Shown: piece after piece, positions 3,429 through 7,519 of the stretch
Numbering within the stretch: the stretch's first letter is position 1
Layout of the letters: every line of letters begins with the position of its first letter
NCBI GenBank assembly: GCA_024278345.1
Contig: JAJRTK010000145.1
Location: 1-8,613, forward strand
Reading direction: 5' to 3'
Source of the DNA: a bacterium
GTDB taxonomy: Bacteria; CSSED10-310; JAJRTK01
Length of the DNA: 8,613 nt
The notes under the pieces: model-generated
The model's input: only the letters and a program-made list of their open reading frames with translations
Told to the model about the DNA's origin: nothing
Database searches by the model: none
Position numbers and translations under genes: made by a program

Positions 3429-4268
3429 GTGTTTTCCGCGGAAGCCCTTCAGCTCTTGACGCTTCCATTCGTGGCTTGCCTGGTTCTCATCGGTATCCAC
3501 TGTTATCTGGGCATCCACGTGCTGGCCCGGGGCGTGATCTTCGTTGATCTGGCTTTGGCCCAGATTGCGGCGTTTGGCGGCGTCGTCGCTCTTCTTGTGG
3601 GATACGAGAGCGAAAGTCCGGCATCGTTCGGGTTTTCCTTGCTCTTTACCGTGTTGGGCGCCGCCCTCTTTTCTATCGCCCGATTCCGGGAAGAGCGGAT
3701 TCCCCAGGAGGCGATCATCGGGATCCTCTACGCCGTGGCTTCGGCCTTGGCCATTCTGGTCCTGAGCAAGTCACCCCACGGCCGCGAAGAGATGGAGTCG
3801 ATGCTCGTGGGGAGTATCCTTTTCGTCACCTGGCCGGAGATCTTCAAGACAGGGGCCATTTATCTGGCCGTGGGACTGTTCCACTACATTTTTCGGGAGC
3901 GGTTTCTCTTGATCTCCCAGGACGTGGAAGAGGCCCGGAGGCGCGGCTGGTCCATCCGTTTTTGGGATTTCCTCTTCTACTTGAGCTTTGGGGTGGTGGT
4001 GACGCGGTCGGTTCATATCGCGGGAGTTTTGCTGGTCTTCACCTATTTCGTGGTGCCCACGGTCTGCGCCATGCTCTTCGCCCACGGGTTGCGGCAGCGG
4101 CTGTTCCTGGGGTGGGGGATCGGTTTTGTCGCCAGCGTGTTGGGGCTTCTTTTGTCTTTGAAGATGGATCTTCCCACGGGAGCGTCGGTAGTGGCGTCGT
4201 CGGGCGGGGTCTTGCTGGTTTGCTCTATTGTCTACGCGTTGCTTCCGGGAAGGCCGGAAGATGGCTAG
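3429..4268 (+). CDS. ZnuB-type metal ABC transporter permease (ABC-3 family)
   Basis: This 279-residue inner-membrane protein should form the channel of the metal importer, normally as a dimer with an ABC ATPase. It is almost entirely hydrophobic, with roughly eight membrane segments (for example about 9-28, 39-57, 68-84, 94-112, 128-144, 161-185, 198-214 and 228-272 in part). Family hallmarks are LGIHVLARGVIFVDLALAQ (27-45), the loop HIAGVLLVFTYFVVP (166-180), which contacts the ATPase in relatives, and DLPTGASVV (217-225). The length is typical of ZnuB/TroC proteins. GTG 3429 is chosen because of AAGGAG 7 nt upstream; it leaves 1 nt after the preceding stop codon, so translation is probably coupled. 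No ATPase gene follows: the next gene is on the opposite strand. Confidence 0.9.
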   Translation: MFSAEALQLLTLPFVACLVLIGIHCYLGIHVLARGVIFVDLALAQIAAFGGVVALLVGYESESPASFGFSLLFTVLGAALFSIARFREERIPQEAIIGILYAVASALAILVLSKSPHGREEMESMLVGSILFVTWPEIFKTGAIYLAVGLFHYIFRERFLLISQDVEEARRRGWSIRFWDFLFYLSFGVVVTRSVHIAGVLLVFTYFVVPTVCAMLFAHGLRQRLFLGWGIGFVASVLGLLLSLKMDLPTGASVVASSGGVLLVCSIVYALLPGRPEDG

Positions 4269-4286: not shown

Positions 4287-4305
4287 TGAAAACCGGTATC
4301 ACCGG
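4287..4305 (-). terminator. Weak hairpin between the convergent genes
   Basis: CCGGT (4293-4297) pairs with ACCGG (4301-4305) across a 3-nt loop. On the minus strand the stem is followed by TTTT (4292-4289). It could help end the minus-strand GTPase transcript, whose TGA (4301-4299) lies in the loop and stem. A 5-bp stem and four T residues make a poor intrinsic terminator; Rho-dependent ending or simple convergence is equally likely. Confidence 0.25.
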
Positions 4306-5759
4306 GTGCCGTGGAGCGCCAGGGAAGTCAGGGCGACCATGGCGGAAAAAAAGGCCATGTCGGCCTTGTCGAAGGGGGGCGAAGGCTCGATCCGGTAGAT
4401 GCTCACGATGCCGAATTGACGCCCCTTGGCCACGAGAGGCTGGGAAATATGGCTCACGATGCCCCAGTGCTCGAGCTGTTTGTCGATGGGGCTTATTTTG
4501 CCTTCCGGGCCGGGGCCGGTGGAGGAGCGGCCCCTTTGGCAGAGCCCGGCGGCGACGCTGGGGAAATCTTTGCACGGGATGGAATTGAGCGGATCCGTGG
4601 CAAACCCTTCATGGACCACCGCCTTGAGCTTCGGACCGTTCCCCGTGGGCATGAGCACCGAGCCACCCGCGGCCCGCAGGGACTTGAGGATCACCGTGAA
4701 ATTGGACTGCAAGAGGTCGGGCAGGTTCGGCTTGACGCTGATGAGGCGTGCCAGCCGCGCCAAGTTGGCCAGTTGCCCAACCCGGCTTCGGAGTTCCCTC
4801 CTGGTGCGGTCGAGCTTGCTGTTGACCTCGGCCATGGCGACGTTGGCCTCCACAGCGCCCTCCACGAGGTGCTGAGACTCCAGAGCCTGGTTCGAATCGA
4901 TGCTTGCCCGGAAGCGGTGGCGAGTCACGGGAGCTTTTTCCGCCGCGGGCGGATTGGCCACAACTGGTGGTTGCTTGAGGAAAGGCGTCCGTTCCTCTTG
5001 CCGATCGACCAGTTGAGAATCGAGGTCTTTTGGCTTGGCTTGCTCCAGGATTTCCTTGCGGCTAAGGAGTAGCTCAGAGCTGGAGCCCGTCTCTGCTTTC
5101 GCCTCTTGATGGGCGCCGGGAAGGAGGGTTTGGAGCGAAGAGACCAACCGTTCCGGGAAGCTGGAGACGAAGCGATAGCGTTCCGTGATGCTCCCGGCCA
5201 TCATTTTCGTCGCCTCCAGGAAAGGCTCAAAAACGCCCTTTCCCATGGTGGCCACCGAATCGTAGCGTGCCCATTGGTTTTTGTTCAGAGCCTGGTCCAG
5301 GGTGTCCACGGGCAGCACATTGGGTAGATCCCGTTTGTTGTACTGGAGGACGAGGGGGATTTGGCGGATATTGAGGTCGTGGGAATCGAGGTGCTCAGCT
5401 AATTCCCTCAGTGCGAGCCGGTTTTCCGAGAGCCGATCATCAGCCGAATCCACCACCAGAACAATGGCATCGACGCCAGAAAGAACAGCGCGGCGCGTGG
5501 ATCCATATTGGACCTGGCCAGGTACGGTAAAAAGCTGGAGTTTTACCGAATACCCGCTGATATGCCCCAGATCCAGGGGCAGAAGATCGAAGAAAAGAGT
5601 CCGGTCGTTTGCCGTGTTCAGACTGAAAAGCCGGCTGCGCTGGTTGTTCTGTATGGCTTTGTGGATCTGCTCGAGGGTCGTCGTCTTGCCGCTCAAAGCG
5701 CAGCCCACGTACACGAGCTTGAGGCTCATCTCCCGGTCGGTGTTGTTGAAAAGAACCAT
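4299..5759 (-). CDS. MglA-like Ras-family GTPase fused to a C-terminal GAF domain
   Basis: This 486-residue cytoplasmic protein begins with a full MglA-type G domain (about 1-195). It lines up without gaps with Myxococcus MglA, as I recall it, through the start MVLFNNTDRE, supporting ATG 5759. Visible motifs are the P-loop GCALSGKTT (19-27), NDRTLFFD (51-58) with the intrinsic arginine finger Arg53, TVPGQ (78-82) with Gln82, and NKRDLP (141-146). A polar linker (about 215-295) leads to a probable coiled coil (about 300-340) and a GAF domain (about 341-486), which in other proteins binds small ligands or mediates dimerisation. MglA controls front-rear polarity and motility in myxobacteria; the role here is unknown. 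Ala21 stands where MglA has Gly21 (Ras Gly12). No mglB gene is adjacent. The SD AAGGAG (5771-5776) is 11 nt upstream. The gene follows the EHD-like GTPase gene by 48 nt, so co-transcription is likely. Confidence 0.88.
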   Translation of the reverse strand: MVLFNNTDREMSLKLVYVGCALSGKTTTLEQIHKAIQNNQRSRLFSLNTANDRTLFFDLLPLDLGHISGYSVKLQLFTVPGQVQYGSTRRAVLSGVDAIVLVVDSADDRLSENRLALRELAEHLDSHDLNIRQIPLVLQYNKRDLPNVLPVDTLDQALNKNQWARYDSVATMGKGVFEPFLEATKMMAGSITERYRFVSSFPERLVSSLQTLLPGAHQEAKAETGSSSELLLSRKEILEQAKPKDLDSQLVDRQEERTPFLKQPPVVANPPAAEKAPVTRHRFRASIDSNQALESQHLVEGAVEANVAMAEVNSKLDRTRRELRSRVGQLANLARLARLISVKPNLPDLLQSNFTVILKSLRAAGGSVLMPTGNGPKLKAVVHEGFATDPLNSIPCKDFPSVAAGLCQRGRSSTGPGPEGKISPIDKQLEHWGIVSHISQPLVAKGRQFGIVSIYRIEPSPPFDKADMAFFSAMVALTSLALHGTR

Positions 5760-5807
5760 CTCCCAGCCCGCTCCTTGGGGTCCGCCGAGCGGTCCCGATG
5801 CAAATCG

Positions 5808-7328
5808 TCAAGCGATCTCGGCCGCTGGCGAACTTTGGATCGAGGTTCCCGCGGGAACGACTCTTACCACGTCGCCACCCGGTCCACCCTGGCTCTCTAC
5901 CGCCTCGATTCCACCGGCGCCTTCCGCTGTCCCCGGGGAGCTCTCCACAAATGTCTCTCGCCCGCTCGGGTCGATGAAGGCATCGTTCGAGCGCAAAGTC
6001 AGCTCCACGGCTTGCTGTTCGATCTCTTGAAGCTCCCACAGCCAACCGTTGCTCTGGGCCTGGAGCCGGAACAACGAAAAGAGGGGTAAGCTGCTCAGGT
6101 GCTGGAAAAGTCGTTTGGCCCGATCATTTTGGGTCGCCAGGGTTGGCCTTTGCCAAAGTCGGAGCACACGGCGGAGCAGGGGATAGCCTAAGGCCATGAC
6201 CATCAGTGCCACCATGACACCTCCGCCCAAAACCCAAGGCAGCTCCAATTCCAAGTTGCTCCTGGCCACGAGCGACCAGCCGCCAAAGGCCAGGAACCCC
6301 AAGATCCCCAACGACAAAAGGAGCGCCGAGCGGATCTTGAGAACTGCCGGAAGAGCCTTAGAAAGCGAGTGCCCAAGATGGCGAGCCTCTTCCCGGAGCA
6401 CCGAGATCGCCCGATAGGTCCGATCCCGGTTGACGCGGCCGATCCTATCGTAGATCTCTTCCCGATCCCTCTCCCACTCCGGATGCTCCGCAAGCCTCTC
6501 CTTGTTTGCCTTCGACTTGTCGGGACTACAGATGATGTAGGTATCCCCGGCCTGAAGCCCTGCCGTGGCAAGGCAGGCTTTCCAGCGGGAATAGACGTCC
6601 AGGAGGTCGTCGTCGGGAACCTCGTCAATCCGATTCAACACATAGACCACCTTCGATGCGTCGGAGCGGTGAAGGATCTGGCTCACCATTTCCAGCGTCC
6701 GGGGAATCACTTTCCGCTCGGTCTTGTGGACGTCGAAAAGGAAAAGGACCAAATCGGAGACATCGACGATCTGCTCCGCAAGGGTCAAAATCCCTTCCCT
6801 CTGCATATCGGCGTCATAACCGGGGGAGTCGATGAGGATCACTCCCCGGAGCCGAGCGGCCGGGCATGCCTTGAGATCGATGTAGGTACTGATGTCAGTG
6901 CTGGCTCCACCCCCTCCCACAGCCCGCGACAGCTTTTCGTCGATATTGTAGAAAGGGAACCTTGGATCCGCCGCCAACGCCAGTCCGGGCAACGTTTGCA
7001 CCGAGCCGCCACCGCCGTAGCAAAGCACGCTGAACTTGTCGTTGACCGCCTGGATCCCATCTTTCTGGACGGGTATCCCTAAAAGATCATTGACGAACGT
7101 GCTCTTCCCCGACGAGTACGTGCCCAGCAAACTGATGACTGGCCACCAGCGAACCGATTTTGCCAAACTCTCTCCCGGCCCGATGGCTCCCACCCGGGCC
7201 GCCAGACGATCAAGCCCTTCAAAGCTCTGCAAGACGTCTAGCAGCACGGGGTGCTGTTCACTGGAAAGATGGCGCTTGAGGCGATCCATCCAGCCTCGAT
7301 CCACGGAACTCGCTTGCATGACCTTCAC
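5808..7328 (-). CDS. EHD/dynamin-like GTPase with transmembrane hairpin
   Basis: Proteins of this family bind nucleotide and remodel or tether membranes. The G domain shows the P-loop GTYSSGKST (69-77), DSPG (167-170), VHKTE (200-204) and LNRIDEV (231-237). The stretch around PGLALAADPRFPF (114-126) and the phrase LFLFDVHK recall eukaryotic EHD proteins more than classical dynamins. Two hydrophobic segments at about 334-355 and 365-385, separated by a short loop, form a membrane hairpin. The tail (about 450-506) is Gly/Ser/Glu-rich and looks disordered. GTG 7328 (506 residues) is preferred because GGAGG (7341-7337) lies 8 nt upstream; ATG 7355 (515 residues) and ATG 7319 are alternatives. The switch-I threonine of EHD proteins appears to be missing (AVNDKF, 94-99). 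It is the first gene of the minus-strand unit. Functions to consider are envelope stress, membrane vesicle or cell-polarity roles; none is shown by the sequence. Confidence 0.85.
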   Translation of the reverse strand: MKVMQASSVDRGWMDRLKRHLSSEQHPVLLDVLQSFEGLDRLAARVGAIGPGESLAKSVRWWPVISLLGTYSSGKSTFVNDLLGIPVQKDGIQAVNDKFSVLCYGGGGSVQTLPGLALAADPRFPFYNIDEKLSRAVGGGGASTDISTYIDLKACPAARLRGVILIDSPGYDADMQREGILTLAEQIVDVSDLVLFLFDVHKTERKVIPRTLEMVSQILHRSDASKVVYVLNRIDEVPDDDLLDVYSRWKACLATAGLQAGDTYIICSPDKSKANKERLAEHPEWERDREEIYDRIGRVNRDRTYRAISVLREEARHLGHSLSKALPAVLKIRSALLLSLGILGFLAFGGWSLVARSNLELELPWVLGGGVMVALMVMALGYPLLRRVLRLWQRPTLATQNDRAKRLFQHLSSLPLFSLFRLQAQSNGWLWELQEIEQQAVELTLRSNDAFIDPSGRETFVESSPGTAEGAGGIEAVESQGGPGGDVVRVVPAGTSIQSSPAAEIA

Positions 7329-7364
7329 GTTTTTCCCCTCCGCAGGGCATCCCACCTAAATCGC

Positions 7365-7434: not shown

Positions 7435-7519
7435 GAGATTCGCGCCGGATGTTTGACGACAGGTGACTCTTAAATTCTCGGATCCTTCCGGGATAGCCAA
7501 CGACCTAAAGGATACGACG

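Follow-up and report, generated by a model that had tools for sequence, protein, structure and literature searches.

The genes of two GTPases from different families lie side by side on a contig from the draft genome of an uncultured bacterium (GTDB lineage Bacteria; CSSED10-310; JAJRTK01; assembly GCA_024278345.1, contig JAJRTK010000145.1), and this locus raises the question whether an MglA-type switch and a dynamin-type GTPase form one system there or are neighbours by accident. The window analysed was the entire contig of 8,613 bases, taken from a draft genome of 6.06 Mb in 550 contigs with a completeness of 87.9%. Comparison across genomes did not support a conserved MglA-dynamin module, and a lineage-specific functional pair is possible. 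Judged from the sequences, the novelty of the locus lies in its parts, in that the MglA-type protein, hereafter P0001, belongs to a branch of MglA that is fused in one chain to GAF/PAS sensors and histidine kinase.

The dynamin-type GTPase, P0002, and P0001 are encoded by two adjacent open reading frames (ORFs), both on the minus strand, with a gap of 48 nucleotides (nt) between them; P0002 is transcribed first (7328 to 5808) and P0001 second (5759 to 4299). Counted from the GTG at 7328, P0002 has 506 amino acids (aa), the ORF itself opening at 7355, and is preceded by the Shine-Dalgarno sequence GGAGGGG (7335-7341) located 6 nt 5' of the start codon. P0001 (486 aa) starts with ATG, and AAGGAG (5771-5776), a possible ribosome-binding site, is placed inside the gap, 11 nt before this codon. 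Codon-position G+C of the two ORFs was of the coding type (0.63/0.42/0.74 and 0.63/0.44/0.72). On the left, a convergent gene for an ABC-3 zinc-type permease ends at 4268, 30 nt from the end of P0001, and on the right a divergent LolA-like gene starts at 7463. Both flanking genes being oppositely oriented, the unit consists of P0002 and P0001 only, which bears out the first-pass annotation in describing two different GTPases on one strand, 48 nt apart and with no third gene. From this operon-like layout we infer co-transcription of P0002 and P0001. The scan for promoters and terminators returned no site in the 48-nt gap, its counts being at chance level and hence of little weight.

The N-terminal part of P0001 (residues 1-195; 5175-5759), delimited by alignment and structural match, is an MglA G domain. 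It matched Thermus MglA by sequence with an E-value of 1.5e-46, and the model of P0001 was superimposed on Myxococcus xanthus MglA (6h17) with a structural Z of 26.9 and a root-mean-square deviation of 1.7 over 191 residues. In M. xanthus numbering, Thr78, the catalytic Arg53 and Gln82 and the NKxD motif (NKRD) are kept. A disordered linker joins this domain to a long predicted helix (residues about 292-341; 4737-4886), conserved in sequence with the corresponding parts of L025 and L026, the two closest full-length relatives of P0001, and a GAF domain follows (residues about 346-485; 4305-4724). The Pfam score of the latter was just over the cut-off (24.6 bits against 22.4); the C-terminal 286 residues of P0001 alone matched the GAF region of L025 (4e-16) and of L026 (8e-14). 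The earlier description of P0001 as a polarity-type small GTPase with its own GAF domain was thus confirmed. In the Foldseek search with the whole model the MglA domain dominated, the dual-sensor kinase 6oap appearing at rank 24. The chain stops after GAF, and no HisKA or HATPase match to a kinase core was obtained in the Pfam search.

Both L025 and L026 run on into a histidine kinase: these are single MglA-GAF-histidine kinase polypeptides in two Acidobacteria metagenome-assembled genomes (MAGs), of 748 aa (L025:6001-8247, +) and 738 aa (L026:6001-8217, +). In the MglA tree, P0001 clustered with them, with the MglA-GAF proteins of two other genomes, G082 and G106, and with MglA-PAS-kinase-receiver proteins of Holophagaceae (support 94/83, long branches). 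The GAF domain was matched by Pfam in the G106 protein only and was deduced for G082 from its alignment to G106. Up to GAF, the domain order of L025, L026 and the G106 and G082 proteins is that of P0001; P0001 differs from the former two by having no kinase. Among the Holophagaceae, a cultured group that includes Geothrix fermentans, the fusions have the order MglA-PAS-HATPase-receiver and about 790 aa (L030:6001-8352, +; L031:6001-8406, +). Because the MglA domain of P0001 groups with MglA-GAF-kinase, MglA-GAF and MglA-PAS-kinase proteins, the sequence data suggest a signalling branch in which outputs were swapped. A survey of prokaryotic Ras-like GTPases treated these proteins as single-domain switches and reported conserved neighbours for some MglA groups, with no GAF domain mentioned (PMC4316618).

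The relatives of P0001 in this clade suggest that a kinase output was lost or exchanged in its past, and one may ask whether P0001 is anything more than a declining remnant of an MglA-GAF-kinase protein, with its kinase output deleted and no specific partner left. Its full-length similarity to the two Acidobacteria proteins that continue into the kinase would agree with such decay, as would the end of the chain right after GAF, with the end of the convergent gene only 30 nt away. However, the frame of P0001 is intact, its codon-position G+C is normal and its GTPase motifs are complete, and MglA-GAF without kinase is a stable architecture elsewhere (in G106 and, by alignment, in G082). We consider such a decay improbable.

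A further feature of P0001 is the residue at position 21, which corresponds to Gly12 of Ras and Gly21 of M. xanthus MglA (numbering as in PMC3000849 and PMC3983030): its P-loop, GCALSGKT, has alanine there (codon at 5697-5699). Glycine occupied this position in 89 of the 104 MglA domains compared; P0001, L025 and L026 have alanine, and the MglA-GAF proteins of G106 and G082 differ from P0001 in having glycine. Alanine or serine at position 21 is on record among MglA variants (PMC3983030), and Ala21 is thus a variant inside the family, not a ground for exclusion from it. In Thermus MglA, the G21V substitution lowered kcat seven-fold (PMC3000849), and the MglA of Bdellovibrio has a natural Ser21 in an organism that lost MglB (PMC3983030). 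A roadblock gene was found nearby in none of 14 loci with a residue other than glycine, against 23 of 70 loci with Gly21 (84 loci in total; p 0.009, kinship ignored). Based on Ala21, on the Thermus and Bdellovibrio precedents and on these counts, P0001 is predicted to be a slow GTP switch independent of MglB, a behaviour already proposed for the Ser21 MglA of Bdellovibrio. No roadblock (MglB) match was present anywhere in the window; elsewhere the same genome encodes another MglA (L005), and that one does have a roadblock gene beside it. The statement that MglA normally acts with MglB, made in the first-pass annotation, consequently needs care for P0001, since none of the loci examined for its Ala21 class showed a roadblock gene nearby.

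Compared with the MglA/MglB systems of M. xanthus and Thermus, P0001 shares the MglA fold, the motifs and residues T78, R53 and Q82, but differs in having Ala21 for Gly21, no adjacent roadblock gene, a fused helix and GAF domain and no motility gene nearby; for the last reason, a plain MglA motility operon was dropped as a candidate. It resembles Bdellovibrio MglA in its natural non-glycine residue, in having no MglB partner and in its predicted GTP-prone switch (PMC3983030); the Bdellovibrio MglA loci found here encode proteins of about 196 aa that lack additional domains, whereas P0001 carries GAF.

Two observations on other MglA loci may be added. In Zixibacteria loci (L051, L052, L058, L063, L064, L068, L076, L078 and L080), mglA is located amid three roadblock-domain genes and not beside a single mglB. 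The genome studied here also encodes a very divergent MglA-like protein (L006:1117-2133, -) with the P-loop GPRKAGKS and TASGS instead of TVPGQ; it forms the longest branch of the MglA tree, and its hydrolysis is probably altered.

The partner gene (5808-7328) codes for P0002, a GTPase of the dynamin superfamily whose G domain is EHD-like by sequence and which also has a predicted C-terminal transmembrane hairpin, as assessed from the ORF, Pfam, matches in the Protein Data Bank and the family alignment. Its Dynamin_N match reached 40.3 bits against the Pfam cut-off of 27 (E 4.4e-10) and covers residues 74-217 (6705-7136), with G1 (GTYSSGKS) and G3 (DSPG); G4 (NRID, residues 241-244) is located beyond the Pfam range. 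Across 42 aligned relatives, the G1, G3 and G4 residues were invariant or nearly so, although roughly half of the family has arginine in place of the G4 lysine. The closest solved structures by sequence were all EHD4 or EHD2, EHD4 being the best (3.5e-10), and matched the G domain only. Hydropathy placed the hairpin at residues about 345-392 (6180-6323), with hydrophobic segments 345-363 and 372-390 and peaks of 2.03 (residue 345) and 1.96 (residue 372); of four relatives scanned, three showed two matching peaks and the remaining one a single peak. The single-sequence structure model of P0002 had a predicted local distance difference test score of 45 and, being too poor, was left out of the fold search.

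The designation "EHD-like" in the first-pass annotation holds, by sequence, for the G domain only, and the membrane hairpin stood as described. Neither an EH domain nor EHD_N was found among Pfam matches at E up to 0.1, and P0002 as an EHD protein or orthologue was therefore ruled out. EHD proteins, eukaryotic dynamin-related ATPases, have the nearest solved G domain and share with P0002 a proposed role in membrane remodelling; P0002 differs from them also in having a transmembrane hairpin instead of the peripheral membrane-binding tip of EHD. In eukaryotes, small GTPases steer the recruitment of EHD. With BDLP, DynA and LeoA, P0002 has in common the Dynamin_N superfamily and a membrane segment after a helical region, but matches to the DynA and LeoA profiles were weak or partial, and P0002 represents a separate family, in our sample mainly from Planctomycetota and Desulfobacterota-like genomes.

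We also weighed whether the locus could serve defence or the response to envelope stress, with a LeoA-like or DynA-like dynamin that would answer membrane damage or phage entry and MglA-GAF as its regulator. The weak matches of P0002 to the LeoBC (1.1e-6) and LeoA (5e-4) profiles point in this direction, but they cover part of the G domain only, as expected between any dynamins; no full-length match to a defence profile was obtained, DynmDynABac giving 12 bits against a cut-off of 1600. Moreover, P0001 had no PADLOC match, and the neighbours are zinc-uptake and LolA-like genes and not defence genes, so that we regard such a device as very improbable. Two GTPases encoded side by side are known from the double-GTPase (DO-GTPase) conflict systems (PMC7159879). 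In those systems the two GTPases are paralogous and a GAP1 gene accompanies them, whereas P0001 and P0002 come from different families and the unit has no third gene; this candidate was dropped.

To the conservation of the pair, the check proposed with the first-pass annotation, we applied P0002 itself as the query, the Pfam Dynamin_N model having been rejected as a genome-wide bait since its matches in the phylum were mostly Era, Der, HflX and MnmE. The search comprised about 1,490 genomes: 8 of the own phylum, 50 mixed, 294 Planctomycetota, 396 Acidobacteriota, 395 Nitrospirota and 345 from the phylum of a "Deltaproteobacteria" MAG. The 41 relatives of P0002 were distributed over Planctomycetota (19), Desulfobacterota-like genomes (19), Nitrospirota (1) and others (2), with the nearest in G1006 (42% identity), G082 (40%) and G942 (40%). 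The dynamin family was thus hardly represented in Nitrospirota (1 of 395 genomes) and absent from all 396 Acidobacteriota genomes. Viral contigs yielded no relative, and among plasmids one of Lysinibacillus carried a distant dynamin. Flanks of the dynamin relatives were read for up to 1.5 kb per side in all cases and mostly for 4-6 kb in 18 of them.

The outcome weighed against a coupled pair in several respects. No MglA or roadblock gene was present in the flanks of any of the 41 dynamin relatives, and no such dynamin in any of 80 MglA loci, so that the proposal of a gene order kept across distant species failed in this sample, the genus and family of the source organism being unsampled. The genomes G1006 and G942, which have the best Desulfobacterota-like dynamin orthologues, had no detected MglA, and the dynamin therefore does not need MglA in those genomes. 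The MglA-GAF proteins of G082 and G106, which are of the same clade as P0001, adjoin dnaA and not a dynamin.

As regards the neighbourhoods themselves, the closest Desulfobacterota-like dynamin orthologues (L172:3547-8997 and L171) are located between a gene for a PAS-kinase-receiver protein and an aminotransferase gene, the kinase domains being confirmed for L172 only, and the Planctomycetota orthologue adjoins a glycosyltransferase gene. The MglA-GAF genes of G082 (L198:7733-9511, -) and G106 (L200:10063-11757, -) lie by dnaA, dnaN and gyrB, where the origin of replication is presumed to be close, and in G082 the adjacent dnaA was confirmed by Pfam. Four matches of the dynamin hidden Markov model in MglA loci were identified as Der/EngA and not as dynamins. 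In these four Acidobacteriota or Nitrospirota loci (L029:4474-5862, L049:4573-5952, L081:3686-4993 and L097:2263-3699; all +), der/EngA lies upstream of mglA, an arrangement that makes a recurrent neighbourhood of two GTPase genes.

These data bring forward fortuitous neighbourhood as an explanation, in which P0001 and P0002 serve unrelated pathways and have only the strand, possibly also the transcript, in common. The dynamin would then act in general membrane maintenance, and MglA-GAF would signal to an effector encoded elsewhere. Neither family retains the other as a neighbour, the dynamin orthologues adjoin sensor kinase and aminotransferase or glycosyltransferase genes instead, and some occur in genomes without detected MglA. 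Against it stand the tight two-gene operon layout, isolated on both sides, and the almost empty sampling near the organism, with 1 genome in its family and 8 in its phylum and the genus and family otherwise unsampled. We would give fortuitous neighbourhood a little less than an even chance.

Since the sample had no second genome from this genus or family, a lineage-specific pair can still be considered. In its favour we counted the shared strand, the 48-nt gap without a promoter- or terminator-like site, both ribosome-binding sites and the isolation by convergent and divergent neighbours, along with the domain identities of both proteins, the place of P0001 in the sensor-fused branch of MglA and its Ala21. 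Furthermore, one Planctomycetota genome, G082, has the dynamin orthologue and MglA-GAF on one contig, about 30 kb apart; the chance of two given genes lying this close in the 5.6-Mb genome is about 1%, but the case was chosen post hoc and is suggestive at most. The proposal of a lineage-restricted, co-transcribed pair, in which a GAF-controlled switch recruits or gates a membrane dynamin, is the reading we favour, though tentatively and at somewhat short of even, fortuitous neighbourhood being about as likely. Functional coupling of P0001 and P0002 as such is rated similarly, and independent functions about the same.

Under this proposal, two independent GTPase families would have been assembled into a two-gene operon restricted to the lineage. 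P0002 would be seated in the inner membrane by its hairpin and would assemble in a nucleotide-dependent manner to shape or seal the membrane. P0001 would dimerise via its helix and GAF, would hydrolyse GTP slowly and would not be set by MglB; it would be switched on or off through the GAF domain, by a ligand or a partner of the latter, and in its GTP form it would recruit or gate P0002 at a chosen site. As to the origin, an MglA-GAF-kinase protein probably lost its kinase and a neighbouring membrane GTPase may have become the output, the dynamin as a new output being a hypothesis.

Elsewhere in the window, an ORF of 595 aa (373-2160, +), upstream of a ZnuA-like gene, had no Pfam match; by eye, its C-terminal part resembles an outer-membrane barrel, perhaps a metal-linked porin.

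The literature searches found no paper describing an MglA-dynamin pair, most subscription journals lying outside their coverage. The claim of the first-pass annotation that the pair would be an undescribed, spatially controlled membrane module therefore stands as far as its novelty in the papers found is concerned, and does not in that the adjacency was kept in no other genome examined.

Control of membrane remodelling by Arf and Rab follows comparable logic in eukaryotes. The furthest-reaching version of the proposal is in our opinion unlikely: it sees in the pair a bacterial analogue of the control of dynamins by small GTPases, with a ligand-sensing, GTP-prone MglA-GAF protein that positions or gates the membrane-anchored, EHD-like P0002, and with the fused histidine-kinase output replaced in evolution by a membrane-remodelling one. 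If the pair does work together, it would be the first instance known to us among bacteria in which a switch of the MglA type directs a GTPase of the dynamin type; the MglA-GAF/PAS-kinase branch matters independently of whether P0001 and P0002 cooperate.

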